Below are positions 3,543-25,212 of a DNA stretch of 64,000 nt, one piece after another. Position numbers and translations under genes: made by a program. Every line of letters begins with the position of its first letter. Position 1 is the stretch's first letter. The stretch covers positions 6,698,501 to 6,762,500 of the forward strand of contig NC_135263.1 in assembly GCF_964204865.1 (NCBI RefSeq), read 5' to 3'. The notes beneath the pieces are model-generated. The model was not told where the DNA came from. It saw only the letters and a program-made list of their open reading frames with translations, and did no database searches. Source of the DNA: Styela clava. Lineage: Eukaryota; Chordata; Ascidiacea; Stolidobranchia; Styelidae.

Positions 3543-4598
3543 GTGAGAAACATTCCAAAGTTTGTATTGAGACTGGAGAGTTGTTACTTTAATTTCGTGT
3601 ATTATAATTCTTATTGCTTTGTTTGTTTACTATGAAATTTTTTTCATATTTGTTTTATGATATTTAAGATTTTTAGAGTTTAATCGTAATTTTCTTAAGT
3701 GTGGTGGCTTTTGATGCTGCAGTATTTTGTATACATTTTAATCTCATCTTCAATTTGGCAGGTTCATAAACAAAAATCTGGTACATAATCACTTCTTTTT
3801 TCGGCCCAGAATAATGTCATAGTGTTGCACGCAATTTTTAGTGCCACTGAACTGTCTCATACTCTGTATATATTATTTGGTGTGCTTTCAGCTATGTTAC
3901 TTTCCTGCATTCTCAATAATTTTAATCAACAATTTCCCTATCCAGACCCACTGAATTTTACCTATTTATGCACCAATTCAAAAACCACCCGTTTTTTTTT
4001 TAATTTTGAGTTTTTTGAAAAATGATAATTGCTTGGTGCCACTGAATAAAGGAGTCACATCCAACCTGAAATATCCCATAGTTGTTTCATTATTTTTTAA
4101 TGACAAAGTCTATCCCAAATTGCAAGGATTTGAATAATGCAATTCAAGCTACCTAAAAGCAGATTGCACTCTCATTTCTAACATTATGTCATTGCCTCAA
4201 TTAATTTAATTGTTTTAACAGTTTAATAAATTATATTCAAACTTCCTATATCTTGTTTTAATTGCTGTAGAAGTTACCAGTTTGATCTCACCATGAAGGA
4301 GCATTATTTTGGGACTTATTGGGTGATACTGGTGGTGAATATCTCATAAAAGTTATAGAATAGTATTTGGATGTGGGTTCTGTGAGTGTGTGTCTTTATA
4401 TTGGGGCTTACTTATTAAGCTAGTGAAGATTTATGTGCCCCTCATTGACCATTGCTACTAAAATTATTAAAAACAGACCCACAAGTCAACCACATCGGAC
4501 GGAGAATCAGGCCAGTTGCCAAAACTTCAAAATGGGGTTCGGACATGAAAGATAAAAGCACAACATGGACGATCTCACCGTGTGACATAGAACCTCAG
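3543..4598 (+). other. Peflin 3' UTR and flank, no other gene
   Basis: AT-rich sequence after the peflin stop. Candidate polyadenylation signals AATAAA occur at 4045-4050 and 4225-4230. No conserved coding stretch or repeat was seen before the hAT insertion at 4607. Confidence 0.5.
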
Positions 4599-7962: not shown

Positions 7963-8040
7963 CAGGGCTACTCAACTGGCGGACCGCGGTCCGAATCCGC
8001 CCCTTTCGGGTATTCGATTCGGACCGCGCCTAATTCTTTA
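7963..8040 (+). mobile_element. Isolated hAT-like transposon end
   Basis: CAGGGCTACTCAACTGGCGG followed by a GC-rich palindromic stretch (GGACCGCGGTCCGAATC, then GATTCGGACCGCGCC) has the look of a hAT 5' terminus. No convincing partner terminus or TSD was found within the next 1.2 kb, so the boundaries of any full element are unknown. Confidence 0.45.
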
Positions 8041-9298
8041 TTTTGAATTATTAGCCCCACTTTTGAAGTTTCCTTCCAAAAAATCACTTTTATAGATTTA
8101 AATGTATATATGAAAAACTATTACGCCATAATAAACAATCTTGATTAGCTAATAATCCTTAGCCGACCGAGGAAGCGCGTGTTCAAGGATGCAGAAATAT
8201 AATTTCTGAAAAGACCGGACCCAATATTTTTAAAGTTTCGTATGCAATATATCGCCGCCGAAACGATCGCGGGGATAAAAACAATCAGCGATTATGATGA
8301 AATTGTCCAGCATAAAAAAACGGTTCGCTGCCGATTTTTCAAATTTTTTTATTTTTTATTTCCGAAAGGAGTATCGACCGTGGTTCTGGTCTCCTGTCGT
8401 GTATAAAAAATATTCGTTTCGAAAAAAATATTCGATTTTACCCACCCGTAGTTGTAACTCCTTCTTCGTTTTTAACACAGGCAAAGCAGCATCGAGTTGT
8501 TAATCATTATGTATCAGAGCAATATTGATATCCGGATGCGTGTTCTAAAGGTTTCCGAGTCACAGATGTGAAGATGGGGTAAGTGGTTTTTCGACATTAT
8601 ATCGGTTCAAGTGTTTCATGTCTATCATAGAAATAAAATGTGTTATGGGCAATTCTTTATACCTAACGCTCTGCAGTAAATATGCGTAGTCATGACACAT
8701 AGTACACAACTTTAGAGAGTTTTGGGATCACTGTGATTACGCAAAGTTAATACATTACTGATAATCCAATACTTCTCCCAAGTGTTATGCTGTCTCAGTG
8801 ATGGACTATGATGCTCCCGTGTCCTATTAAGCAAGCACGCACTATTTTAGAAAAGACTTTCCACCAATATCTATGAAGTATACATGAGATAAAATGTATT
8901 TATCAATATGCGGAAGATGCTATTTTTTCAACTGGCATTCCTCAGGAGAAAAAATTTGCTTTCTAAATCCTGAGAATCTTCATACTTGGATTTTGGTCAA
9001 GAGTATCTCGTTATTATCAATTTAAAATTATTGTTATTAAAAATTATCAGAAAATATTATTGCTTCCGTGGCAGTGACTTTTTTTAGCGAACAGTTGAAA
9101 GTTCGACTCCTAGTTTTGAAAGCCCTGCTCCACCAGAATGTTGAATTTCTTAGTTATTCCTTTTAACGTTAGAGCCATGAAGCAGTCGATACTCATTTTG
9201 CTTATAACATTTCTGGGGAATGATAAGATAACACCCAACGCGTTTTTAATTCTGCGTACTAGTATACCGGTAATTGTTTTGTTTTTTCACATTTACAA

Positions 9299-9323
9299 TA
9301 TATATATATATATATATATATAT
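9299..9323. repeat. (TA)n microsatellite
   Basis: About 12 uninterrupted TA dinucleotides. Similar short TA runs occur near 25814, 34698, 41767 and 41870. Confidence 0.85.
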
Positions 9324-10022
9324 TCGTTTTGCATTTTTGTTGATCGGTTTTCGTCGTTGAAAATCAGGGTTGAATTAGGGAAAATCGCTCTCACGCATGT
9401 TTTTGGCTTCCAAAAGACGCTTTCTATTAGCTCTGCCAATTCGCATCAATTTTTTTTCAGAACGTGCATTAAATATAGTTTAACCTTATGTGCCATGTAT
9501 CGCGAAGGCATATTTATATTCGCCAAACGACTAACAGAGACTTCTGTTTAATCATTTCGCCAACTACAGTGTTTCTTTTTCAAATATAAATAAAGCATGT
9601 ACACAAATTAAATAGGTAACAAAAAGTATTTGCAGTTGAATCAGACGGACAACGGGGAAACCAGTTTTGCCATTTGAATAGTATCTTTCGAGAATGTACA
9701 CAACAACGAAGGTTTAGGACGAACTCTTTTAGTAACAGTAATTCTCCCATACACAGGCTCAAAACGTGTGAGGCTGTGTGAAATAAACAATCTAGCTAGA
9801 ATAAGTTAGATCAAGGATCGGCCTGAATAAATATTGAGCAATCAACCTTTTTTGTTGTGCCAGAATTCTTTAAATAGCTATTTGCCGACCCTTGAACTAG
9901 GCCGAAGTTTCAATTCATATTTTGCTGTCTCCCGTTTCGAGATGAGTTTTCGCGCATTTATGTTTGTTTTCTTGAACTAGCCATATTTTTAGTGAGTTGA
10001 GTTTTTCAGAAAAACATATGAA

Positions 10023-13000
10023 ATGGAAGGTTCTTCAAACAATGGCGAAGAACTGAAGTCTAGGCGTCGAAGCAGCTCATTTTCCGTAAGATCATTGAAA
10101 TCGCCGCGTTCTGAAAATAGGTCACACGGTAGATCGAAGAATGCCCTAGAACACAAGGAGATTATTTCCGCAGAGGCCAGCAAAACTGATGGCGATTTTT
10201 CCGAGCATATGAGAAAACTCAAAAGCAAGCATTCACATGGAATTAAGCACAAGCATCCAAGAAGAAAACATACTGTTATTAACGAGAACGATCTCATCGA
10301 TAATTTGAAGCGACTGACACCCCTATATCGCCGTAAAATATTTTTCGATCAATTGAAGCGGTACTGGTATATAATTGTAATCGCTGCTGTTTTGCTAACT
10401 GGAATATCAGTGGGTATTTCACTTATATTTTTACCCCAAAGTAGTGAAAGATTAATTGAAGTTGAGACTCCGCCGAGTCCACTGCATGGCCGATGGGGTG
10501 TAGTAAGGATGAACGACATGGGGGTCGAATCAATTGTGCAGGGATTGAAAAATGATAATCTATCTGTAATAAAAATTGCAGAAGATTCAATAAAAAGTGT
10601 GTACTTAGAAGCTGGACTTCCGATTCAAAAAGTAAAAATATTCTATTTTAATGGTTCCAACACACAACATGACCGACGTCTTGCTACGAACAAAAACACG
10701 GTTGTTCTGGAACATACAGCATTTTTCAATGAAAGTGCCGAAGTAGGCGAATTAGATATTGATGCTATTGTACGCACTGTACGGAAAATTTTATCAATCA
10801 ACGATACCTGGATATTTGACCCAAATTTATTAAGCGTTCGACAAGGCTCTAATCGAGCTGTTGCGAATTCCGTAGATAGCTTTGTGCGTTCTGAATTTCC
10901 CCAACTAGATTTGAAATCAAGACGAGGGAGAATGGGTTTTGCGAGTAAAGTAACACTTTGTGAAGTATTTTTTAATGTTTCTAATGGAAAAGTTTCACCC
11001 GATATTTGCCTTGTACCTGGAAGAATTCGCACTGGTCTAGCATGCTACATTTCTTGCGATGACAATTTTATTCTGACGGGTTCTAAGGTACGAACATGCT
11101 TATCCAGTGGTGCCTGGACTGGCTCAGAGTCAAGATGCGAATTACCGTGTCCTCATATAACGCCCCCAACGAACGGGATTGTTGATCCAAGATGGTGCAA
11201 AATGGTAAAGGCGAAATCAACGTTGTTACTGGGCATGAGCTGTAACTTCTTCTGTTCGCCCGGGTATACTCTAATTGGGAGCTTCAGAGCCGTATGCCAA
11301 TCAGATGGAACTTGGTCGTCAATGCCCCCAACTTGCAAACGCGTTTGTCCGGGTGCTGTCTTTCCAGAAAACGGTCATGTTGTGCCGACATCATGTTCCA
11401 GTAATTGGGTCAAGGAGGGGACATTCTGTTCTTTTTTCTGTGACGATGGTCATGTAATACAAGGCAAAACAACTGCGACATGCGATAGTGATGGATCATG
11501 GACAACAGAAGCTCCGGTGTGCAAAAAGAAATGCCATGCTTTGCAGACATTGCATAATGGAAAGGTTCATCCAAGTATTTGTGGCGAAGATAAAGCTGAT
11601 GTTGGAACGCGATGTACCTTCAGTTGTGGAGAAAGTTATAAGTTAGTGGGATCAAAAGAAAGATCGTGTGATGTAACAGGTCAGTGGACTGGCACAACAT
11701 CGGAATGTGTCCGAATATGTGCAAAAATAGGACAACGTCAATATCTGAAAATGTCTCCAGAATGTGCACTTCAAACATCTCAAGCAGGCACACAATGCAA
11801 TATGTCATGTGTTCGGGGGTTCGAAATAGATGGCGCAGAAGTACTCACATGCCAAGATGATGGACTCTGGGATAAAGATCCACCAGTTTGTCGAGCAACT
11901 TGTATACGCTTCGAAGAACCAAAAAATGGTTACCTAATTTGTTCTGGATTCAGCGAAGGAGCTTCGTGTTCACTTTTTTGTCCAGAACAATATGTTTTGT
12001 TCGAACCGAGTTCTGTGGTGTGTCGCACTGACGGGGCCTGGAGCGAACCTATAGGACGTTGTGTCAACACTTGTCCGAAATATATGGTTCCTGATCACGC
12101 TAAGCTTCATCCAACAAAATGTGGACTGGAAATGAGCTTGGTCGGCCAAATATGTTATTTTGAATGTAACAACGGTTATGGTATATCTGGTAATTTCAAA
12201 ACAGAGTGTTTGGAAGATGGTACGTGGAGTCACAATACTACTATCTGTGTGGAGGAACAACAATATCTGATACAAATTGATACCAGCGAATTAAAAATGT
12301 GTTTGATACTCGAGCAGGAAACCTCTTTTCTATTGAAAATTGAGTGGGTTGAATGCATTCGAGGTATGCAATACACCAAGTGGACAGTGTTGCCAAGTGG
12401 TCTTATCAGAAATGTAGACTCAAACAAATGCTTGGCCGCAGAAGGATTGGGTTCAATGTCCTTTCTGGTCGGAAAATCCTGTGACGAAACTGATAAACTT
12501 CAAATTTGGAATTGGCCATTTTCTTCAGATGAAGGATATTCGTTGAAGCTTAAACATTACGATCTATATCCTTGGGAAGGTTATTCTTCGCTTTCAAAAA
12601 CTGTTATAACCAGCCAGATTACTCATTTAAAAGCGAGTTGGAAGCTTTACGACCTCACAGCCAGTAGAGTTTCTTCATTTTATGGTGCTTTCAATAACGG
12701 AGGATGTCCGCCTTTAAAAAATGGTCAAAACGGCCGTTGGTCTCCATCATCGTGCTCTCAAATTACAAGTAGAATATATTCGTATTGTACATTCGTTTGT
12801 TCAACAGGGTTCACTTTCCGTGACCAAGACCTCGAAAGCCAATGCGTAAACGGAATATGGTCGAACGCAATTACTCCTAATTGTGTTGCTGGATGCAGGG
12901 GATTGCATACGGATTCAAAAATGTCGATTGCCCCAGTTGCGTGTCACGATAAGTATGTTGATCAGGAAATCATTTGCACAGCATCGTGCCCGACAAATAC

Positions 13001-16000
13001 AATTCTTGTCGGGGAAAAACACTTGGTTTGCTTGAAAGGAGGTATTTGGACGTTTCCCCCACCAATTTGCGTACCGCTGTGTAACACTTTAGTTGTAGTT
13101 GGAAGTGGATCGATCAAATCGTCGGATAAATGTTTTGACAACAGCGGTTTGCATCGCAATGGAAGTTTATGTGAAATAGAGTGCGCAGAAGGCTTTGTTC
13201 TTTCAACATCTTCATTTTATCGTTGTGTGAACGGGGCATGGGATAACGATCAACCCGTGTGCCAGAGAAAATGCAATAAACCAACTTTCTCGAGTCACGG
13301 ATCAAGCAGTTGTATGAATGGCCCAAGCTTTTATGTAGAAGGAGAATCATGCACGTATACATGTGATACTGACTATGCCATGTTAACCAATATTTCAACA
13401 ATCAAATGCCTTTCTTCGGGATTATGGAGTCATAATACGCCAGTATGTAAGCGCATTTGTCAAGGTCTACCTATTGCAGTTGGAATGTCGTTGACGCCAT
13501 CTAGTTGCTCTGGAACAGGGGATATTGTTGAAAATACAATTTGTACAGTGTCATGCGATGCTGGTTTTATTCTTTCTGGGTCTCGTATTCGAACTTGCCT
13601 AGCGTCGGGAAGCTGGTCTGGATATACCAGTAGCTGTGTTGTCGATAGACAGTTTTTCATCTGGAATAACCATGATGAAGATAAGCGATGCTTGTATGCG
13701 AATAAATATTTGCTACAAAATACCTATCGTCTAGTGCTTAAACCGTTTCATCTATGTGTAAAAACTGATCCAATGTTTATATGGAAAGCTGATGAAGATG
13801 ACAAACTTCGAAATGTCGGAGCTAACTTATGCCTGGGTTCTGAAAGCATTCGAGATAATGCACTGATCATTCTGAGTTCTTGTGAAGCATCTCGGGCTAT
13901 TCGCTGGCAATATGTGTTACGCCTTGGTCGATATGTAATTTTGAATAATAACGGCACACACTATCTCCGCAGACATGACAACTCGCATGTTGAGTTGGAC
14001 TCGTTGTTTGACGAAAATTTTGAAAATCGCAGCTATTACGGATGGAAAGCGACAGACTTGGATTTAAATGAGGGAAGTGTGTGCGGTATTGCGCATAATA
14101 CATGTCCCAGGATTAGCCTCCTAGATGGAACATATTTTGTTTCAAGTGACTTGCATTGCCACTCTGCGGTAGATACTGGCTCTAATTGTACTTTATTTTG
14201 CCCAAGCGGGCCTCAAATAGGTAGTCCCTCAGAAGGTGTTCTTTTCAATTGTCTCCAATATGGAATGTGGTCCAATGTCAACATCGACTGTTCTTATAAG
14301 ACATGTCGGCCACTAACTCTTCCATCGAATGCATCAATCAATGATGAAACCTGCTTAAACACAAATTCATCTACGACTGGCGATAGAGTATGTGAAATAT
14401 CCTGTGACGAAGGGTCCGTGAAAATCGCAACGAACAAGCTCAATAAAGGTACAGTGTGCCTAATAAACGGAGAGTGGAGTGAACCTGCTCCAGAATGTCT
14501 TAGTAAATGTATGCATGTATCGTCCCCTATAAACGGATCTGTTTCACGCAATTGCAATGGCGAACAAGTGCTCCTCGATGGAGACACATGCGAGTTCTTT
14601 TGCAACTTCGATCATGAAATCGTAGGGAATAACTCAATAAAGTGTGTAGGAGGTGAATGGAGTGGTCCTGTGCCTACATGTGCTCTACTGACTACTAATC
14701 CTCCCATTAAATGCCCCGGTCTATCTCCGCCAGCCAATGGTTATCTCATGCCCTCATCATGTACTCAAGGTGCAGTGGCACACGGAACGATGTGCAGTAT
14801 TAATTGTAACATGGGTTATTTACCGGATAGGACTATTCCAAGCAGTATCAGGTGCCAAGCTAACGGAGGTTGGACAGGACCTGAAAATCGTTGTTTAAAG
14901 ATTTGCAATGTATTTGATTTTGTATCAGAGTCCAATCGGAATCATCAAAAATCTAAATTTATCATGTCACCAGAAAGATGTTTTGAAGGAAATAACACAG
15001 AAGGGGATTTGTGTTATCTGGATTGTGTTGACGAGTATGACATTTTCGCCGGCCCTTATGCTTATGGGTCACCGTTATATATTAAATGTCAAAGAGATGG
15101 AGAGTGGTCTTTGTCGGAAAATGAACATGAAAAATTATACAAATGCTTGAAAGTTGCCGAGTTTAAAATACAATCTAGGTCAACAGGACTGTGCATTAAC
15201 GCTATCACTCCCACGTTTGTGGGCTTCACATCGTGTGATACGAATGATCGTGGGGTTCTGTGGGTATTTTATCACCATGTGTTGAAAAACAGGAAAAATC
15301 TTACTCACTGCCTCAACATTGACGACTCTGCAACTTCTCTATCAACATTGTCACTTGCGCCCTGCTCATTGACTGATGTCAGACAAAGATGGGACTGTGG
15401 TGTGAACGACCTAGAGTATGAAATCATTAATTATTATATTGGTGTTAAGCTCGTACATATTAATAACAGCAATAGAGTATTTGCCATTAAAATGCGGAAT
15501 GCGGATTTTTCTTTGGTATCTCCTTCATTTTTTGACCCGAAAGACGGCAAGGACGAATGGACAAACATCGAAAATGAGCATATTTGTGGGCGCCGGACTA
15601 ATGCGGATGTATGCATGATACACAAATGGACTACTATTGAGAATGGCGCTGTTAGTCCAAATTGCCAATTGAAACACTCCACAATACCGCAATATGACTT
15701 TATTTCAGTCGGCGAGGTATGTTCCTTTCACTGCAATGAAAACTACACACTTGTAGGAAGTTCAAGTGCCAAATGTATGTGGCGTGGAAGATGGGAGTAT
15801 GATCAGGATCCAAAATGCGTAAGGATGTGTCCCGCCCTGGCAGTTCCAGATTTTGCCACGGGCACTAATGTAAATTGCAGCAGACATCCGTCAATGCCAG
15901 GCTCTCGGTGTGAATTTATTTGTGATTACGGTTTCATCCATTCCGGTGATTTAGTTCAGCTTTGTCTTCCGACTGGTACTTGGGCTGGAATTCAGCCGTT

Positions 16001-19000
16001 TTGTTATAAATTATGTGCACCCATTAAACACAGGCACGCGTCAACGATCCAACCACCGGAATGTACAGAAGAAACACAAGTAGCCGGAACAATATGCTCA
16101 ACAGTATGTAACGATGGTTATGAAATTGAGGGCAAAAGTACCCAACTATGTCAGCCAAATGGTGAATGGTCAAGCCCACAGGGCTCATGTGCCATATTAT
16201 GTCCAGCTTTATCGTCAGTAATCCATGGCATTGTCGCCCCTTCCGATTGCTTCAGTTCAAAAAAGATGCCTGGCAGCGTTTGTATTCACAGGTGCAAATC
16301 GGGATATAAATTGATTGGTGGGGAATCGAGAACTTGTGGTGCAAATGGGTTGTGGAGTGGAAAGATTGCAACATGCTTACGAAAATGCCCAAAGTTGTAC
16401 CCTCCGTCAAATGCAGTCTATATACTACAAAGTGGCCACGAAAATGTGGAAGGTGCGATCATTCGAACGATATGTAAAGTTGATTACACAGTTGACAAGA
16501 ATCCGATTCGCCAATGCCTTAGTAACGGTCTATGGAGTGGAAAGAAGGCTACTTGTGTGTACGAGAAACAGTTTCTTTTGTTGCAAAGTTCTCCGCCATC
16601 TCCTAGTATTTGTCTTTTTACTGATGAAAAATTGATTGTACGCATTTCAAATATTGCCCAATGTAATCTAAAATCGCCATGGTTCTTATGGGCGTGGCAC
16701 GGATCTAACCAAATACGCAACGTGGGTGCTAATATGTGCTTGTCAGCTTCTTCCCGTGATTTCGGTAATTATCTTATACTTGAAAACTGCATTGATATTG
16801 AAAATAATCAAAAGTGGCATTGCTCTACTTTCGGTCATAAAAATGTCATATCTTTGAAAAATACTGATGCAATTCCTGTGTTCACTTCTCTTTCGCCATC
16901 CAAAGTAATTCTGCTAAGTACCGATATCATTATTTTTTTAAACAAGAAATCCATTGTTCCTCTTGCAAATTTGCAGTGGTACGCCATGACGTCGGAAAGC
17001 AACCACACATTACTCTGCTCTGCTAAAGACGCCGATGCATGTCACGGTTTGCAACCAAGCGAACATTTATCAATAACGCCCCAATGTCAATTGACCCCTG
17101 TGCCGATTGGAACCGATTGCTCATTCCAGTGTAAAAGTGGCTTTGTTCCAACCACTGATATTCTGACGTCGACCTGTTTAAATTCTGGATATTGGAGCAA
17201 TGGTGTACCGAAGTGCGCGCCGGCCTGTGATGGCCTTGTCGCTGACAAACGTGTTAGAGCTACCCCGGAAAATTGCCTTTATTCTGTGTCGTTGCCAGAA
17301 GGACAGACCTGCCGATTTTCATGCCCGCCAGATTATGTACTAGTAGGAGATCATACTTTAACATGTTTGAACAACGGAAAATGGACTTCGAGCCCGCCGA
17401 TGTGTAAAAAAACCTGCTCAACATTGAACATCCCCTTGCTTGGATCAGTAGTTCCAGAATTGTGTATTGACCTAGGTCTAAGACTTATTGAAGGGACAGA
17501 ATGCGAGATTTCCTGCCTTCAACATGATCACATTTTGAGTGGGTCATCTAAACGTGTGTGCACAGAAACTGGCGAGTGGTCTGGCTTTGATTCCAAATGC
17601 ATAAAACCTTGTAATATTGTTGATCAACCACCACATTCGATTGTAGGGCCAGCGCATTGTCTCCGACATCAATCTCAGATCGGTAGTATTTGTTCGTTTA
17701 CGTGTGAGGCTGGATATTCTCCCTCTGAAACTTATTACAGACGGTGTTTAGAGAATGGGACGTGGAGTGGAGAGGAACTGTATTGTCAAATATATTGTCC
17801 CGTAATTGAAAATGTTGCCGTGGATGGCGTTATCTATCCATCAGACTGTTTGCACTTTGATAGTGCTCCTGGGTCGATGTGTAACATTAAATGTGACACC
17901 GGCTACGAAGTAATTGGCAATAAATTTGTCTCTTGCAACAGTGGAGGTACCTGGAACGGAAAACTTGGTGTGTGTACAAGAAAGTGTCCACGTCTTAAAA
18001 AACCTCTTAACGGTAACATTAAACCATCTGTTTGCATGAATGGAGATATATATGCCGGAACGGTATGTACACATTCCTGCCAAGAAAAGTATTTACTAAG
18101 TGGTTCCAATCTTAGAACATGTTCTAGACAAGGTCAATGGACCGGTACAGAAGCAAAATGTGTGCCTAGTTGTCCGCCTCTAGGAACTATCAAATTGGCT
18201 TCAGTATTACCTGTATCCTGCACCAAATCTTCACAACCGGTAAATACAAAGTGTACTGTGGGATGCGTTAATGGAACATTGTGTGCTGATGGAGCAAAAA
18301 CGGTTTCCTTGTCATGTTTGCCTAATGGTTTTTGGAATCGGCCGTCGCCAAAACAATGTTTACATGTTTGTGATGTTTATGAGGTTGAGAATGGAGCCGT
18401 CGTTTGCGAAAATTCAGAAGAAAATAATCTTGGGGTTGTCTTCGACGGGGAAAAATGTACTGTGCATTGCCATAAATTTCACGTTCCGATAACTCATCCT
18501 ACTTCAACTTGTGTCATGGGTAATTGGACCCCTTTTATCACGCGTTGTAAGTATATTCCATATCCACTCTTGATGGTGCAACGAATTGCCTTCGATACGA
18601 AGTGTTTGGGAATAGAAGAGTCTTTTGTCACCATGCATTCGTGGGAGGCGTGCAGGAATGAATCTTCTGGGACAAAGTGGGCTTGGAGAAACCACTATAG
18701 TATTGTTAATCTTGCCAGCGGTTTGTGTCTTACAGCAGTATCATTAGCGGTCGACGAATCAATTATTGTTTCACCTTGCGATGACCATAGTTCTTTACAA
18801 AAATGGGACTGTGATTCTGAAGAGCCCTATAGTATATTTTTGAGTGGGACCTTACTGGGCCCCGGAAGAAGATACCCTGAGTTGCCAGAAATAACCCTCC
18901 AGGAGGTCGGAGCACCAGAATCATTTTTTTATACGTTCAACCCCAATAGCAAGGACGAACTCGGGACGCTTTGTTCCGTGAGACCTCATCGAGGTTGTCC

Positions 19001-22000
19001 AAAATTGTTACTTTCTGGCGGAGTATCTGTAAGTCCTCATATATGCCGAGAAGAAATTGTGCCTCCTTCAACAGTTTGTACATTGGAATGTTTAAATATA
19101 CATCATGTAATTTCAGGAGAATCAGTATTTCAATGTGATGATTCTGGCATGTGGATGCCCGATATTGTCGGAGAATGCGAACCGAGATGCCCACCTTTAC
19201 TCCCAGAAGGGAAAGTACTTTTTGTAAACGAGTCGTGTTTATCAGAACAAGCGGCAGTAGGTACAATTTGTGAATATTCATGTCCATCTGGGTATGTGTT
19301 GCAAGCTGCGTCAAAAACACGCGAATGTTTAAAAAATGGAGAGTGGAGTGGAAATAAACGCGCTACGTGCAAATTATTGTGTACTGAATTGAAAGAGCCT
19401 AAAAATGCCAAACTATATCCTTTGCCTTGTACCCATGGTACATGTACAATACAGTGTGAAGTCGGCTATCGCCTTAACGGACCGAAGGCCAGGGTTTGTC
19501 AGGGTTTCGGCGAATGGTCAGGCACCGAATTTTCCTGTGTTGAAGATGTTCAATTTGCGATATCAACAAAAAATTTAGCTTTGAGAATAGCTATGTGTTT
19601 AACAGTAATAAGTGGAAATCAAGTTGTTAAGCTTCCATGCAAGCTACGTAACAAATCTCAGATGTGGCGATGGAGGTCACATCACACTCTCGAGAATGTT
19701 TACAGCGAGTCTTGCCTTTCTCTACGACAAGCAAACTTTAGTGATGATAAAATGCTAAAGATCACGGGGAAAACAGAAACGCAAACGGTTCATGACGCCG
19801 AAGAGAATACCGACGTCAGCTACGATTTTGAACACTTTCAAAATTCATCGCAACCAAGTGATGTGTTCGTCACAGACTGCAATTCAGATCATGTTAATCA
19901 GTATTGGGAATGTGATGCAACCTCACATTTAAACAAATTTCGTGTTAAACTCCCGAAACTTGGTTTATTTTTGGGGTCAGGTCCACAGTTCACCACCAGA
20001 ATTACACTCAACAACAATTCCCACCCATCCCCACGCTGGATGGTGAACGATTATGAGGGTATCTCAACAATTTGTTCCAAGAGATTGACAGGTGTCTGTC
20101 CACCAATTCAACCAATATATGGTGGTGTAATCACTCCTGCACTTTGTACGTCTGAATTTATAACATCGGGTACGAAATGTCATTTCCAATGTGATGATTC
20201 ATACATAATAGAAGGAGACCAGTCATCAATTTGTCGTCCGAGCGGATTCTGGACAAAAGATCCTCCTGTTTGTATTGGCGTTTCAAAATGTCCGCCACTT
20301 ATGGTGCTGGAACCATTAATAGTTCGTCCGTCGATTTGCAAAGACAAGAGAATTTCAGAAGGAAAACGATGCTTCTTCCGATGTAAAGAAACTTATTTGT
20401 TATCAGGTACTGAGGTCGTTTTATGCACTGCGAATCAAAAATGGAGTGATCGGTTACCTACTTGTAACGTATTTTGTGCAACGCTGCCTCCACCTGTACA
20501 TGGATTAGTATCACCCGAATCCTGTCAAAATTCAGAAAACGATGTTGGGAAAACGTGTTCTTTTAGTTGCCTAGAAGGTTTTGACATAGTTGGAGAGATA
20601 AACCGAACTTGTTTGAGCCGTGGAACGTGGTCTGGCAAGCAAACACTCTGTCGCAAGCTATGTCTCAAACTTGACCCAATCCCCCATGGCTTGATATCTC
20701 CTGAGCGATGTATGTTCAATAAAAGCTCAGCGAGTGGTACTTGTGTTGTAACCTGCGAAATAGGCTTTTGGCTAGATGGACAATCGCGTCTCGTGTGCAA
20801 GGATGGAATTTGGTCTCATGGGTTACCAACTTGTAGAAACAACACATGTCATAAATATTTAACTGAAGTAGATTCCATCATTTCCATAAAATATTCGAAA
20901 TTGAATAATGGTGCCATTGTTAAAGGGACTGACATGAAATATGAATGCGACGATGGATACCGGGTACACGATAATAATGAACGTACGTGTATGTCTGACG
21001 GCTCATGGTCTGGTCCTAAAACGTTGTGTACTCCTTTGAAATGCACTTCATTACAGCGATTGTACCATGGATTTGTCGAACCTGAATCATGCATAACATC
21101 ACTAGGCGTCCCAATCGGAACATTATGTTCTTACTCGTGTGACCATGGCTTTGCTCTTAGCGGCGCGTCATCGGTAGAATGCCTCACTACTGGCAAATGG
21201 TCGGAGAGCGATATTCCACAATGCCATGATACAAACACTTATTCTCATCATATAAACTTCCTAATTAATGAAAAATTTCACCAATCTAACAACGAGAAAA
21301 TCGCATCTAATAATTGTATAGAAGCAACTAAAGGAGAGAACAAAACTCTATTCATGAGCAACTGCAGTCCACTATCTCCTTTCAAATTATGGCGGTGGTA
21401 CGGAAGTTCAAGAATACAGAACGTTGCAAATCACTTATGTTGGGAACTGGAATCAAGTGGGCATTTAGTTCTGGGCAAATGTAATCTAAACATTACTGCA
21501 CAGAGAGTTCATTGCGGCGACATACATTCCATATCCGCCAGTTATCAAATAAGTGTCAACATGGAATTAATAACGCACAGACTTCAAGCAACATCTAATT
21601 TTTCTGCTACAAATCTTGACTGGGTAGCAATAGATTCATCCACTTCTAATGTTGAAGGCGATTTGATTTTGTCAGAATCTTATTCACAGGGTGTTCCGGT
21701 TTGTACATATATGTGCGGAGGAACCTTCCATGACGAAGAAGGTAATCTGGCCACTCCTAATTTCCCGTCGTCGTACCCAGGAGATGTTCTTTGTAAATGG
21801 ACAATAATTGCTTTAACAAAAACCATTTATGTCGACTTTTCATTAGTAGAGCTTTCAAATAGAGCCGAAAAGGGAAACAAATGTTTCACCGACAACATTG
21901 TAATATTTGACGGGGCCACCAGTGACTGCGAACAAAGCGACATTTTGAGTACCGTGTGTCATAGAAGGGATAATTTAAGAGTGAAGAGCTTGCATGGTGT

Positions 22001-22925
22001 GTTACATATTCAATTAACTTCTGATCATAATGATAAAGACAACGGTCAGGGATTTTCTGCTCGTTGGTTTTCAGAAGAATATCCACCCTTGTATCCAACG
22101 TGTGGGGTAAGCGAATTGGGTCCGACTGATTTTCACAATACGACAAACCATGGGTATCCATGGCAAGTTGTTATAGTAACTTGGAAACGTGTGTGTGATG
22201 CAACCTTTATTGACAAGAGGTTTGTAATCACGTCTGCCCAGTGTGTTGAACATATACATAGTGCAAAAGAAGTTGTCAAACTCATTGTCGCGTATGACTT
22301 TTTTACGCAGTCAGAATTTCTTCTAAAGTTCAAACGTCGACGATTCGATCACGCAGACAAAGTGTGGGTTCATCCTAAATACCAACCTGATATGTTACTT
22401 AATAATATTGCTATGGTGCGACTCGTACAAGGGATTCAAATGCCGGAAGATCTCTTACATCCTATTTGTCTCCCTTCTCCTGATGTCGGTCGTGTTGAAA
22501 GAGCTGGTGACAACTGCGTTGTGAGTAGTTACAAATCTTCGTTGATGACAAAACCATCTCAAACCTGGAGATTTACTAAAATAGCTACAGCACGTATACT
22601 CACTCGTGAAGTTTGTGACAGATTGTTAATTTTTGAAAGAGGCCTCTCTTTCGATAGTGGAGATCTTTTATGTACTGAAATGTTTTACGAGTCTGATCCA
22701 CAATTGCCACTGATGTTTGAAAGTAAATACATTGATAACGATGGTGGAACCGTGTTACAATGTCTTTGGAATGAAAACTGGTATGCAGTGGGGTTATTCA
22801 ATTTTGCTTTGAGTGATTCCAAAGACAAGCATTTTCATGTTTATACTGAGATAATTGCTAATCGAGATTGGATCACGAACACAATTGATAACGCCTTTTT
22901 GAAACCATCAAATGTTTTTGTTTGA
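10023..22925 (+). CDS. Giant type II membrane protein: SEA-like, 39 CCP, 7 ricin-B-like, CUB, pseudo-trypsin (4,300 aa, single exon)
   Basis: One intron-free frame. The ATG has a good context (GAAATGG). A pyrimidine-rich AG at 10008-10009 may end a 5' UTR intron. Residues 1-112 are basic and Ser-rich (cytoplasmic) with no signal peptide. A hydrophobic helix spans about 114-137. A SEA-like region follows (about 150-300). From Cys313 come CCP modules, 39 by hand count, in blocks of 7, 5, 5, 5, 8, 3 and 6. Each block is followed by a ricin-B-like module like the Cys-rich N-terminal domain of mannose receptors (W.W, RNV....CL, QKW.C), at about 745-890, 1208-1357, 1711-1858, 2181-2336, 2845-2988, 3175-3355 and 3737-3893. 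Most CCPs have six cysteines, as in selectins. CUB is 3894-4018 and the trypsin fold about 4027-4300. In the latter His becomes Gln4073, Asp becomes Asn4128 and Ser becomes Asp4240, so it should be inactive. The order tail-TM-SEA-CUB-protease parallels type II transmembrane serine proteases. I infer a surface recognition or adhesion role; the ligand is unknown. Confidence 0.9.
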   Translation: MEGSSNNGEELKSRRRSSSFSVRSLKSPRSENRSHGRSKNALEHKEIISAEASKTDGDFSEHMRKLKSKHSHGIKHKHPRRKHTVINENDLIDNLKRLTPLYRRKIFFDQLKRYWYIIVIAAVLLTGISVGISLIFLPQSSERLIEVETPPSPLHGRWGVVRMNDMGVESIVQGLKNDNLSVIKIAEDSIKSVYLEAGLPIQKVKIFYFNGSNTQHDRRLATNKNTVVLEHTAFFNESAEVGELDIDAIVRTVRKILSINDTWIFDPNLLSVRQGSNRAVANSVDSFVRSEFPQLDLKSRRGRMGFASKVTLCEVFFNVSNGKVSPDICLVPGRIRTGLACYISCDDNFILTGSKVRTCLSSGAWTGSESRCELPCPHITPPTNGIVDPRWCKMVKAKSTLLLGMSCNFFCSPGYTLIGSFRAVCQSDGTWSSMPPTCKRVCPGAVFPENGHVVPTSCSSNWVKEGTFCSFFCDDGHVIQGKTTATCDSDGSWTTEAPVCKKKCHALQTLHNGKVHPSICGEDKADVGTRCTFSCGESYKLVGSKERSCDVTGQWTGTTSECVRICAKIGQRQYLKMSPECALQTSQAGTQCNMSCVRGFEIDGAEVLTCQDDGLWDKDPPVCRATCIRFEEPKNGYLICSGFSEGASCSLFCPEQYVLFEPSSVVCRTDGAWSEPIGRCVNTCPKYMVPDHAKLHPTKCGLEMSLVGQICYFECNNGYGISGNFKTECLEDGTWSHNTTICVEEQQYLIQIDTSELKMCLILEQETSFLLKIEWVECIRGMQYTKWTVLPSGLIRNVDSNKCLAAEGLGSMSFLVGKSCDETDKLQIWNWPFSSDEGYSLKLKHYDLYPWEGYSSLSKTVITSQITHLKASWKLYDLTASRVSSFYGAFNNGGCPPLKNGQNGRWSPSSCSQITSRIYSYCTFVCSTGFTFRDQDLESQCVNGIWSNAITPNCVAGCRGLHTDSKMSIAPVACHDKYVDQEIICTASCPTNTILVGEKHLVCLKGGIWTFPPPICVPLCNTLVVVGSGSIKSSDKCFDNSGLHRNGSLCEIECAEGFVLSTSSFYRCVNGAWDNDQPVCQRKCNKPTFSSHGSSSCMNGPSFYVEGESCTYTCDTDYAMLTNISTIKCLSSGLWSHNTPVCKRICQGLPIAVGMSLTPSSCSGTGDIVENTICTVSCDAGFILSGSRIRTCLASGSWSGYTSSCVVDRQFFIWNNHDEDKRCLYANKYLLQNTYRLVLKPFHLCVKTDPMFIWKADEDDKLRNVGANLCLGSESIRDNALIILSSCEASRAIRWQYVLRLGRYVILNNNGTHYLRRHDNSHVELDSLFDENFENRSYYGWKATDLDLNEGSVCGIAHNTCPRISLLDGTYFVSSDLHCHSAVDTGSNCTLFCPSGPQIGSPSEGVLFNCLQYGMWSNVNIDCSYKTCRPLTLPSNASINDETCLNTNSSTTGDRVCEISCDEGSVKIATNKLNKGTVCLINGEWSEPAPECLSKCMHVSSPINGSVSRNCNGEQVLLDGDTCEFFCNFDHEIVGNNSIKCVGGEWSGPVPTCALLTTNPPIKCPGLSPPANGYLMPSSCTQGAVAHGTMCSINCNMGYLPDRTIPSSIRCQANGGWTGPENRCLKICNVFDFVSESNRNHQKSKFIMSPERCFEGNNTEGDLCYLDCVDEYDIFAGPYAYGSPLYIKCQRDGEWSLSENEHEKLYKCLKVAEFKIQSRSTGLCINAITPTFVGFTSCDTNDRGVLWVFYHHVLKNRKNLTHCLNIDDSATSLSTLSLAPCSLTDVRQRWDCGVNDLEYEIINYYIGVKLVHINNSNRVFAIKMRNADFSLVSPSFFDPKDGKDEWTNIENEHICGRRTNADVCMIHKWTTIENGAVSPNCQLKHSTIPQYDFISVGEVCSFHCNENYTLVGSSSAKCMWRGRWEYDQDPKCVRMCPALAVPDFATGTNVNCSRHPSMPGSRCEFICDYGFIHSGDLVQLCLPTGTWAGIQPFCYKLCAPIKHRHASTIQPPECTEETQVAGTICSTVCNDGYEIEGKSTQLCQPNGEWSSPQGSCAILCPALSSVIHGIVAPSDCFSSKKMPGSVCIHRCKSGYKLIGGESRTCGANGLWSGKIATCLRKCPKLYPPSNAVYILQSGHENVEGAIIRTICKVDYTVDKNPIRQCLSNGLWSGKKATCVYEKQFLLLQSSPPSPSICLFTDEKLIVRISNIAQCNLKSPWFLWAWHGSNQIRNVGANMCLSASSRDFGNYLILENCIDIENNQKWHCSTFGHKNVISLKNTDAIPVFTSLSPSKVILLSTDIIIFLNKKSIVPLANLQWYAMTSESNHTLLCSAKDADACHGLQPSEHLSITPQCQLTPVPIGTDCSFQCKSGFVPTTDILTSTCLNSGYWSNGVPKCAPACDGLVADKRVRATPENCLYSVSLPEGQTCRFSCPPDYVLVGDHTLTCLNNGKWTSSPPMCKKTCSTLNIPLLGSVVPELCIDLGLRLIEGTECEISCLQHDHILSGSSKRVCTETGEWSGFDSKCIKPCNIVDQPPHSIVGPAHCLRHQSQIGSICSFTCEAGYSPSETYYRRCLENGTWSGEELYCQIYCPVIENVAVDGVIYPSDCLHFDSAPGSMCNIKCDTGYEVIGNKFVSCNSGGTWNGKLGVCTRKCPRLKKPLNGNIKPSVCMNGDIYAGTVCTHSCQEKYLLSGSNLRTCSRQGQWTGTEAKCVPSCPPLGTIKLASVLPVSCTKSSQPVNTKCTVGCVNGTLCADGAKTVSLSCLPNGFWNRPSPKQCLHVCDVYEVENGAVVCENSEENNLGVVFDGEKCTVHCHKFHVPITHPTSTCVMGNWTPFITRCKYIPYPLLMVQRIAFDTKCLGIEESFVTMHSWEACRNESSGTKWAWRNHYSIVNLASGLCLTAVSLAVDESIIVSPCDDHSSLQKWDCDSEEPYSIFLSGTLLGPGRRYPELPEITLQEVGAPESFFYTFNPNSKDELGTLCSVRPHRGCPKLLLSGGVSVSPHICREEIVPPSTVCTLECLNIHHVISGESVFQCDDSGMWMPDIVGECEPRCPPLLPEGKVLFVNESCLSEQAAVGTICEYSCPSGYVLQAASKTRECLKNGEWSGNKRATCKLLCTELKEPKNAKLYPLPCTHGTCTIQCEVGYRLNGPKARVCQGFGEWSGTEFSCVEDVQFAISTKNLALRIAMCLTVISGNQVVKLPCKLRNKSQMWRWRSHHTLENVYSESCLSLRQANFSDDKMLKITGKTETQTVHDAEENTDVSYDFEHFQNSSQPSDVFVTDCNSDHVNQYWECDATSHLNKFRVKLPKLGLFLGSGPQFTTRITLNNNSHPSPRWMVNDYEGISTICSKRLTGVCPPIQPIYGGVITPALCTSEFITSGTKCHFQCDDSYIIEGDQSSICRPSGFWTKDPPVCIGVSKCPPLMVLEPLIVRPSICKDKRISEGKRCFFRCKETYLLSGTEVVLCTANQKWSDRLPTCNVFCATLPPPVHGLVSPESCQNSENDVGKTCSFSCLEGFDIVGEINRTCLSRGTWSGKQTLCRKLCLKLDPIPHGLISPERCMFNKSSASGTCVVTCEIGFWLDGQSRLVCKDGIWSHGLPTCRNNTCHKYLTEVDSIISIKYSKLNNGAIVKGTDMKYECDDGYRVHDNNERTCMSDGSWSGPKTLCTPLKCTSLQRLYHGFVEPESCITSLGVPIGTLCSYSCDHGFALSGASSVECLTTGKWSESDIPQCHDTNTYSHHINFLINEKFHQSNNEKIASNNCIEATKGENKTLFMSNCSPLSPFKLWRWYGSSRIQNVANHLCWELESSGHLVLGKCNLNITAQRVHCGDIHSISASYQISVNMELITHRLQATSNFSATNLDWVAIDSSTSNVEGDLILSESYSQGVPVCTYMCGGTFHDEEGNLATPNFPSSYPGDVLCKWTIIALTKTIYVDFSLVELSNRAEKGNKCFTDNIVIFDGATSDCEQSDILSTVCHRRDNLRVKSLHGVLHIQLTSDHNDKDNGQGFSARWFSEEYPPLYPTCGVSELGPTDFHNTTNHGYPWQVVIVTWKRVCDATFIDKRFVITSAQCVEHIHSAKEVVKLIVAYDFFTQSEFLLKFKRRRFDHADKVWVHPKYQPDMLLNNIAMVRLVQGIQMPEDLLHPICLPSPDVGRVERAGDNCVVSSYKSSLMTKPSQTWRFTKIATARILTREVCDRLLIFERGLSFDSGDLLCTEMFYESDPQLPLMFESKYIDNDGGTVLQCLWNENWYAVGLFNFALSDSKDKHFHVYTEIIANRDWITNTIDNAFLKPSNVFV

Positions 22926-23583
22926 AAAAAATTGTTTTGCATTTCAATATTATATTTCCATCTATTCATATTTGCATGCCCATATTTACAATATTTCCAT
23001 AATACTTCATGTCAGATCATGATTTTACCCTTTGACAGTAGTAAACGATCTTAGCTAAACGACGGGACAACTTGCGTGACGTTAAACTGCAAACTGTTTC
23101 CCCGGCCAACAAATTCATATTTTATAAATAACCGTTTTGGGAAAATCAGTATTTGAATGCTTATTTTGTAAAATCATAAAATATATTCATACCATTTCAA
23201 GGAGACGCATTAAAAGGTTTGGGTGAATATGGCCACCATCTTACTACGAATCCACTGATTTGCCTCAATATATTGTTTCATCTTCAACTTTATATGTTAT
23301 GATACAGTCTGTTTTTTGTGAGTTGAAATGCTTTTCATTATTGTCTTAATACAAGTGTATAAGTTGATATGGATTGCCACTTATTCTGGAACTGAGTCAT
23401 ATTTTACTATCGAAATGGATTCATTTGGTTGATTTCAATATTTTGAAATGCACCATATTATAGCTAGAGCTTGAAGCTTGTTCTCTCTCTGTGTTCTCTA
23501 TCGGGTATTTGGAAATGTAATACGTAGAAATATTTTGCTTGTTTAATGCTTAGTTATTGTCTCAAAAATTTGATTATATTTCT

Positions 23584-23589
23584 AATAAA
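23584..23589 (+). promoter_or_regulatory. Candidate polyadenylation signal of the giant CCP gene
   Basis: AATAAA about 660 bases after the stop codon, in otherwise featureless AT-rich sequence. It is the clearest canonical hexamer before the next repeat. Confidence 0.45.
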
Positions 23590-23642
23590 AAATGCCATTT
23601 TAAGCTTTATCGTTATTTCTATACTATTTTATTTCTAAATTT

Positions 23643-23866
23643 GGTACTCCCGAAATGTGTGAACCAAGATGGCGGACACCGGAACGTAGTATGTGTACCA
23701 GGTTAGTCCATAATTTCAGGTACAATTACTACGGGAGTCACTTGGCTAGTCCCCAAACTCGTAATAGAACTAAAATGAGGAAAATTGGAATAAAATTATG
23801 GCCTAACCCTAACCTGGTACACGTTCCGGTGTCCGCCATCTTGGTTCACATACTTCGGGAGTATAT
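23643..23866. mobile_element. Palindromic MITE, copy 2 (224 bp form)
   Basis: Same terminal sequence as the 110-bp copies (GGTACTCCCGAA, then CCAAGATGGCG). It is matched in inverted form by CGCCATCTTGGTTCACATAC and TTCGGGAGTA at the right. The arms extend inward (GACACCGGAACGT and ACGTTCCGGTGTC) around a longer centre. No clear 8-bp TSD remains. Confidence 0.75.
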
Positions 23867-23889
23867 ATATGTGGTGTTCACTAATTGAT

Positions 23890-24930
23890 TAGTTTTACAT
23901 AAGTATAAATCAATGACCTTCCTGCTCACCTACATTGTTTTTCGAAACTTCGCCTCCTGTCCAAATATATTTAAAAATAAAACAGATAAAACAAGAACAT
24001 ATTTACTGACTTCTTGCAAGTAAAATATAAATTATAACTTGTGAATTATTGAACTTCACGTCAGAGTTTAGTTCTGACAAACATCCGGCCGTTGTTTTGA
24101 GAAATCTACATCATTGTAGATCAATGGTCCACGTTGCGATGCATTGGTATAATTTTTCACGGATAATTCTCAGTATTTTTCACATGCTCAAACGTTCGTA
24201 TCACTAATTTATTATGTTTGGATTTTTTTATCTCATTTTCAAAAGTGCCAAATCTATCATTTCTTGCATTCACTAAATGCTACGATTTAAGAGAATTACT
24301 TTTTGTTAATGTTTGTTCGTGTTCTTTTGCTTGACGATTTCTTGTTATTAATTGGAAATTTATTATTAAACCGCCTGATGAATTGACTGTTGATAGAACG
24401 TTAATGTTCAGGGCTCAGGCTATAGGTACAAATTCATTCCTCGGGATGTAGTTGGAAATTATTCTCTGTCCACTATACATGAAACACTCACGATAACGCT
24501 TTATTTAAAAATAGATGTTTGAATGGTTTATAAATGCTTACAGTCGCCATAAACTAAACTTGCTTTGAATTGAAAATGCATCGAAAATTGACTCTCGCAT
24601 TATTTATCTAAAGTTCAATGGAATCAAATGACAGTTATCGGTGGGATCAGGAACCGTTTTATTTTATTAAAACATTGTGGTTCAGGTCTATAATATGCGA
24701 GCGGGGGAATATTTATTTCATACTGTACAATGTACAGAATTAAGTGAAGTTATCAAGCAAATACTTCGTGGTTGTGGGTTCATTTCGGGACATATTACTT
24801 GACTTTTTCGTGTTGCAACTTGAAAACCGTAAGAGAATCCCGGCCTTATAGTATTTGTTGCAAGTGTGTGGCTATAGGTCTATTTATGTGGCGTCATGCC
24901 ATCATGTAAGGCACATATGTATTTATATAT
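23890..24930. other. Intergenic AT-rich sequence
   Basis: Nothing recognisable in either strand: no exon-like open frame, repeat or transposon terminus was identified before the duplicated segment begins. Confidence 0.4.
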
Positions 24931-24984
24931 TCTTATCTATTCACTTCCGTATACAATATGTCGGCAGGTTTAATTGCGTTACAC

Positions 24985-25212
24985 TAATTTCAGGTTATTA
25001 TTAGGCTTATAACGATTGAACATTAATTATCATTCTATTACTTAACAAATAATACTATACCTTTGTCGAAGTTTCGTGATAAGAGTCAAGTTGTAATCGC
25101 ACCTTTGGAATACCCAATTAGGCGCACTTCCTCTCGAGCGTCTAGCACATGTCATCGTACTAACAACAATGAAGTCTGTGATGTGCTTTGAAAGATCCAG
25201 GAGAGAGTTGTG
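24985..25212 (+). promoter_or_regulatory. Distal promoter-like module (copy 1)
   Basis: A stretch of about 230 bp repeated in diverged form by the proximal module immediately downstream. Shared pieces in order: GGTTATTATTA, a 33-bp core at 25073-25105 containing CGTGATAAGAGTCAAGTTGT, TCTCGAGCGTCTAG, and AAGTCTGTGATGT. Unlike the proximal module it has no CACGTG and no TATA box. The core includes GATAAG, a GATA-factor-like site. Regulatory function is inferred from conservation and position. Confidence 0.45.

Follow-up and report, generated by a model that had tools for sequence, protein, structure and literature searches.

The window analysed here is a 64,000-nucleotide stretch of contig C18 (C18:6698501-6762500), and the genome searched along with it comprises 376.6 Mb in 379 contigs. 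Open reading frame listing and translation of the window give one uninterrupted plus-strand frame at 10023..22925 that encodes a protein of 4,300 amino acids and 476 kDa. The next-longest frame of the window is 323 amino acids, and frames of at least 200 amino acids number five in total. Read in either of the other two plus-strand frames, this DNA has 210 and 340 stops in 4,300 codons each, so that the long frame is not due to chance; it is real. An in-frame stop lies upstream at 9993, and just 5' of the ATG a splice-acceptor-like TTTTTCAG (10002..10009) could mark a 5' UTR intron or a trans-splice site; the giant gene may also have 5' exons or be spliced internally. An AATAAA at 23584..23589 (+) is a possible poly(A) signal. 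Positions 23645-23863, 0.7 kb 3' of the gene, hold a 43-base inverted repeat (arms 95% complementary, spacer of 133 bases) that resembles a small transposable element. In ten adjoining open frames, Pfam found no family above its cut-off.

The protein, all of whose features are encoded on the plus strand, begins with a basic, serine-rich tail (residues 1-113, 10023..10361) that contains 28 Lys or Arg, 14 Asp or Glu and 17 Ser and is presumed to lie on the cytoplasmic side. The tail is followed by the only strong membrane helix of the protein (residues 114-137, 10362..10433), with a best hydropathy of 2.71 in a 19-residue window as against a best of 1.68 anywhere past residue 200. Beyond the helix, a stretch at about residues 153-273 (10479..10841) is SEA-like in its predicted order of strands and helices, while its single-sequence fold model, at a pLDDT of 36, is unusable. 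Pfam matched no family to residues 1-339 at E<=10, and hence no SEA. A PDB sequence search with the N-terminal part returned five sequences at E<=10, the best being a dynein (E 0.39) and none supporting SEA, and the window gene is absent among the six places listed by a genome-wide SEA search. A SEA domain in the stem is therefore unproven.

The stem itself is built from CCP (Sushi) modules and trefoil modules (R1-R7) of ricin-B/CysR type. In the whole-protein Pfam scan, Sushi is matched at E=2.4e-183 over 32 stretches, Ricin_B_lectin at E=1.9e-33 over seven stretches and CUB at E=6.8e-11. The automatic cysteine pattern alone gave 36 CCPs, one of them out of register, and the hand count raised the number to 39, of which 36 have six cysteines, one has seven and two have four. 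The six-cysteine CCP pattern is that of the selectin CCPs. The modules are arranged in seven blocks of 7, 5, 5, 5, 8, 3 and 6 CCPs, each block with a trefoil module behind it. Block 1 (10959..12248), supported by the Sushi profile as well as the cysteine pattern, precedes R1 (12249..12704; Ricin_B_lectin E=1.1e-5). The remaining blocks, defined by the cysteine pattern, alternate with the other trefoils in the same way: block 2 (12705..13637) and R2 (13638..14102; E=8.3e-4), block 3 (14103..15146) and R3 (15147..15611; E=1.1e-5), block 4, with four cysteines in its last module (15612..16556), and R4 (16557..17039; E=7.8e-7), block 5 (17040..18548) and R5 (18549..18995; E=7.9e-8), block 6 (18996..19538) and R6 (19539..20096; E=4.4e-9), and block 7, with four cysteines in its fifth module (20097..21224), and R7 (21225..21701; E=4.2e-5). 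From the start of CCP1 to the end of R7 we count 3,581 residues, in agreement with the roughly 3,580 estimated in the first-pass annotation. Recent internal duplication was rejected as a source of the array: the mean identity among the 39 CCPs is 30% and the best pair reaches 49%. Positions 8000-25000 contain no direct DNA repeats of 30 bases or more. A further candidate trefoil piece on the minus strand (window 3477-3626; E=0.003) is a partial, cysteine-free match and was taken as chance.

The seven R modules each match Ricin_B_lectin when searched singly (E 8.3e-4 to 4.4e-9), and three of them exceed the curated Pfam cut-off. R5, modelled from a seven-row alignment, has a mean pLDDT of 62, with about 80 over residues 21-90 and about 35 in the last third, a third lobe too poorly modelled for any sugar site to be judged. 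A fold search with this model places 1dqg, the CysR domain of the mannose receptor, first (E=1.4e-4, 24% identity). In a sequence-profile comparison 1dqg comes fourth (E=2.9e-12, positions 3-105), behind three lectin chains of ricin-B type from plants. Pfam likewise scores Ricin_B_lectin above CysR in six of the seven modules and does not report CysR in the seventh. Because the plant chains score higher by profile, CysR-like is here a statement about the predicted fold and not a settled family assignment. R5 appears to share its fold with the mannose-receptor family, whereas the window protein has no C-type lectin domain in the Pfam scan.

Behind R7 lie a CUB domain (residues 3898-4014, 21714..22064; Pfam E=6.8e-11) and a trypsin fold (residues 4027-4293, 22101..22901). 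Trypsin has no match in the whole-protein Pfam scan but is matched by the C-terminal piece alone (E=4.7e-13), and the piece also matches thrombin (E=4.7e-15). Aligned to a trypsin-type protease whose motifs are intact, encoded elsewhere in this genome, the fold scores 153, as against 32 +/- 4 for 200 shuffles. This protease, on C9 (C9:8152444-8153151, minus strand), is a type II transmembrane trypsin of 401 amino acids in a single frame, has a basic, serine-rich tail and intact triad motifs, and is thus a further intronless member of the protease class. It is the only further place that the genome search with the CUB-trypsin query found, and at 25% identity it was rejected as too distant to be the parent of the window gene.

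In alignments of the window protein to thrombin and to the C9 protease, Gln replaces the catalytic His57 (SAQC, 22239..22241) and Asn replaces Asp102 (NNIAM, 22404..22406). The position of Ser195 falls within Asn-Asp-Gly (residues 4239-4241, 22737..22745) and is not Ser in any register: it is Asn in the thrombin alignment, Gly in the alignments to the C9 protease and to the intron-rich relative described below, and Asp if one residue is inserted. An R/K-IVGG activation site is absent as well, and TDFHNTTNHGYPWQV (TDFHNTTNHG) occupies its place. Judged by these alignments, the trypsin fold is a catalytically dead pseudoprotease.

Vertebrate type II transmembrane serine proteases, such as corin, enteropeptidase and matriptase, have a tail, a membrane helix, a stem and a C-terminal trypsin fold, with CUB in some of them. 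The window protein has the tail, the helix and the C-terminal trypsin fold in common with these proteins, and CUB in common with some. It differs in having lost the catalytic residues, in a SEA domain that is unproven and in a stem made of 39 CCPs and seven trefoils; LDLa, SRCR and frizzled have no match in the whole-protein Pfam scan. The type II protease scaffold proposed in the first-pass annotation thus holds for the order of tail, helix, CUB and trypsin fold, but its SEA lacks a profile match and its enzyme is dead, the missing catalytic residues having escaped that annotation. Of its other domain assignments, Sushi, ricin-B, CUB and trypsin are all borne out by Pfam.

A genome-wide search for the ricin-B family lists 16 places, six of them in the window gene, and one of the others (C18:6503575) sits 5.5 kb from a Sushi match (C18:6509097). 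These matches belong to an intron-rich relative, about 170 kb from the window gene and on the opposite (minus) strand of C18, that runs from about 6533273 down to 6487582. Its CCP and R matches (score >=10) fall in 46 separate stretches of open frame, all on the minus strand, and the longest open segment across 46.5 kb is 181 amino acids. The CUB-trypsin query missed this gene, whose exons are short. Splice-like motifs flank the CCP pieces, with an acceptor before 10 and a donor after 16 of the 20 examined, whereas the same rule applied to the 39 CCPs of the window gene gives six acceptors and eight donors. The modules of the relative follow the order 12 CCP, R2, 4 CCP, R3, 5 CCP, R4, 8 or 9 CCP, R5, 3 CCP, R6, 6 CCP, R7, CUB and trypsin. 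R1 is not seen, and the sole ground for splitting the first 12 CCP pieces into 7 + 5 is the larger distance between the seventh and the eighth. Block 3 has four pieces as against five, R3 was recognised by eye, and it was a matter of judgement which half modules to join. Five candidate membrane exons were considered for the N-terminus of the relative and four are at chance level; the candidate at C18:6541713-6541946 (minus strand) resembles the helix of the window gene, and 5 of 500 shuffles score as high.

The protease of the relative is less altered. RLVGG and TAAHC occur in the open segment 6490523-6490756 and NNDIAV in 6489737-6489952, so that the activation site, His57 and Asp102 are all retained. 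In the open segment 6487582-6487740, GDDGSSLVC directly follows TTTTCTAG and gives Asp in place of Ser195; DSGG is absent from all three minus-strand frames across 6487000-6491000. The loss of Ser195 may be common to both genes by descent, although, with uncertainty over which residue stands in its place in the window gene, there may also have been two independent losses. As far as the alignments go, the two genes may keep a stepwise record of decay, in which both lack Ser195 but the intronless one alone also lacks His57, Asp102 and the activation site.

Comparison of the two sequences demonstrates that their module order is common. Block counting places 31 of the 38 CCP pieces of the relative, and the mean normalised similarity of the resulting pairs peaks at offset 0 (0.91; 5.07 standard-error units), whereas its size is at most 2.1 at each of the other 49 offsets that have 12 pairs or more. 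None of 20,000 permutations reaches the similarity at offset 0. Taken by part, the order test gives p=0.011 for CCP1-12 (12 pieces), p=0.027 for CCP13-25 (10 pieces) and 0 of 20,000 for CCP31-39 (9 pieces). Six of eight R fragments of the relative match their own position best and two match another position. CCP33, the shortest of the 39, has 53 residues, as does its counterpart. Two results are weaker. A blind, order-preserving chain over all 38 CCP pieces of the relative scores 587, about 1.8 s.d. above the shuffled 529 +/- 32 (maximum of 1,000 shuffles, 636). Among 32 placed pieces the counterpart ranks first in four and within the top three in 11, with a mean rank of 11.6 of 39. In a genome-wide search with CCP32-CCP33-R6, for which 132 of 158 candidates were scored, 28 of the 45 places listed lie outside the window gene; five of these 28, including the best two, fall in the relative.

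The CCP pairs are 35% identical over 1,001 aligned codons (18 of the 31 pairs), and the same 18 pairs show 0.52, 0.48 and 0.63 differences per first, second and third codon position. The first-pass annotation had regarded the CCP and ricin-B modules as inserted between SEA and CUB, a view that is not borne out, since the intron-rich relative already carries them ahead of its CUB.

Based on these features, we propose that the window gene encodes a functional type II receptor, a long rod that binds rather than cuts, most likely on sperm facing the egg coat, and that it is an RNA-derived version of the intron-rich relative; we put the probability of this reading at about one half. The rod would consist of the seven CCP blocks, each ending in a lectin-like trefoil module, with the CUB domain and the non-cutting trypsin fold at the membrane-distal end. 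Trefoils and CCPs together would hold glycoproteins by multivalent binding, and the dead protease would serve as a binding head. Membrane orientation, ligand, cell type and RNA route are inferred in this reading. The likeliest site, the sperm surface, is suggested by analogy with HrTTSP-1 of Halocynthia roretzi. The window protein resembles this type in having a single N-side helix, a C-terminal trypsin fold and a long array of small repeats with ricin-B modules. The repeats of HrTTSP-1 were reportedly given as CCP by Harada and Sawada in 2007.

In a review, HrTTSP-1 is described as a 337-kDa type II membrane protein of the sperm side that binds the egg-coat protein HrVC70 and is composed of 23 repeat domains, there called EGF-like, of two ricin-B domains and, at the C-terminus, of a serine protease domain (PMC9265791). 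By that description, it is like the window protein in being very large and anchored in the membrane on its N side, in its numerous small repeats and ricin-B modules, and in ending in a serine-protease domain, but differs in the numbers of repeats and ricin-B domains (23 and 2, as against 39 CCPs and seven trefoils), and the part of the review drawn on here does not mention a CUB (PMC9265791). Because HrTTSP-1 is similarly built, the composition of the window protein has a precedent, and sperm-side recognition is the best guide to its role; the earlier statement that no such protein had been described holds poorly (PMC9265791). Another parallel within the ascidian egg-coat system is HrOvochymase, which, like the window protein, combines CUB with a trypsin-like domain that has no typical triad. 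In contrast to the window protein, it is a secreted polyprotease with further trypsin-like domains, and no CCP or ricin-B is mentioned for it in the portion of the review used (PMC9265791).

An egg-coat partner near the window gene was not found: among at least 23 zona-pellucida places genome-wide, one is on C18, at a distance of 7.7 Mb, and hence nothing points to linked male and female recognition genes, as in a self-incompatibility pair of the s/v-Themis type.

The sperm-side reading has to be weighed against one in which the protein acts on blood cells or epithelium, in innate recognition or complement regulation, and not on gametes. Its CCP, CUB and serine-protease modules resemble those of complement, and the genome is rich in CCP, with at least 150 places scored among 1,557 candidates. 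In addition, vCRL1, a polymorphic CCP protein of Ciona, serves the blood system and is reported to play no part in telling self from non-self at fertilization (PMC9265791, PMC8849226). The same finding weakens the polymorphic-CCP argument that had been advanced for a recognition role, while the gamete idea advanced with it gains from HrTTSP-1 (PMC9265791, PMC8849226). Against a role in blood or epithelium, the sole described protein that we found with such a mixture of parts, HrTTSP-1, is sperm-side (PMC9265791), and we consider this alternative unlikely, though not negligible.

With regard to its origin, the window gene is intronless and a multi-exon relative of the same order is present in the genome, the blind chain test being the weaker part of that comparison. 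Because the module order is common to both, we take the window gene to be, in all probability, a copy that was derived from RNA long ago and has stayed intact. That dozens of introns are absent together would point to an RNA intermediate, made from the intron-rich relative or from its duplicate. Two routes can be envisaged: a spliced message may have been copied into DNA and inserted, or recombination with cDNA of its own may have removed the introns of a local duplicate. At 35% identity, any poly(A) tract or target-site duplication would be expected to have worn away. We infer that the second is favoured, since random insertion within 170 kb of the parent has a chance of about 1 in 1,000 (0.34 of 376 Mb). 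On either route, a gene with dozens of exons would have given a message of about 13 kb that became an intact DNA copy or served to strip a local duplicate; the frame would have stayed open, the remaining catalytic residues would then have been lost, and a lineage of membrane proteases would have yielded a multivalent gamete-recognition receptor that only binds. We offer this whole sequence of events tentatively and think it less likely than not. Searches of the literature on retrogenes and long retrocopies, with passages of PMC7290577 among the results, turned up nothing comparable, although this does not prove novelty.

The window gene is not alone in this genome in having CCPs in a large frame free of introns. 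CCP genes of 725-789 amino acids in a single frame are found on C6, C10 and C19 (loci L056, 2504-4873; L057, 2629-4806; L058, 2011-4281), and the one on C19 has an apparent vWA domain, read by eye. C9 holds a cellulose synthase place (C9:16177457-16177855, plus strand; E=2.2e-4) in which the D, TED and QxxRW motifs were recognised by eye; tunicates are the only animals known to have a cellulose synthase gene, and this one marker fits a tunicate genome. A search by mitochondrial COX1 gave no match.

The direction of change could also have been the reverse, the intron-rich gene being the derived one, or both forms could be old, with no RNA step in this lineage. The single-frame CCP genes of 725-789 amino acids mean that large exons are not unique to the window gene. 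However, dozens of intron gains, many of them at module edges, would be much less probable than a single loss by way of RNA, and we regard this explanation as improbable. A still poorer account is that of a plain retrocopy that is open by chance and has no function. Its trypsin residues are indeed more decayed than those of the intron-rich relative. Against this, 4,300 codons are open although the relative is only 35% identical, from which it follows that the protein has been under selection and which argues for function, and 37 of the 39 CCPs have kept six or more cysteines; so long a neutral decay should have broken the frame. We therefore hold a functionless copy to be very improbable. That the C-terminal domain is still an enzyme by way of a shifted catalytic site is scarcely credible, for although the relative retains RLVGG, His57 and Asp102, all three catalytic residues are changed in the alignments of the window protein and neither gene has kept Ser195.

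The window gene is thus a real and probably functional giant receptor gene. It would add a giant, catalytically dead and intronless member to the ascidian surface proteins implicated in binding between sperm and egg coat. Together with its intron-rich sister, it allows the change from a membrane protease to a pure receptor to be followed by comparison, and it would be a hard test case for the upper limit on the length of a message that, when retroposed or used to strip a gene of its introns, still gives a working gene.
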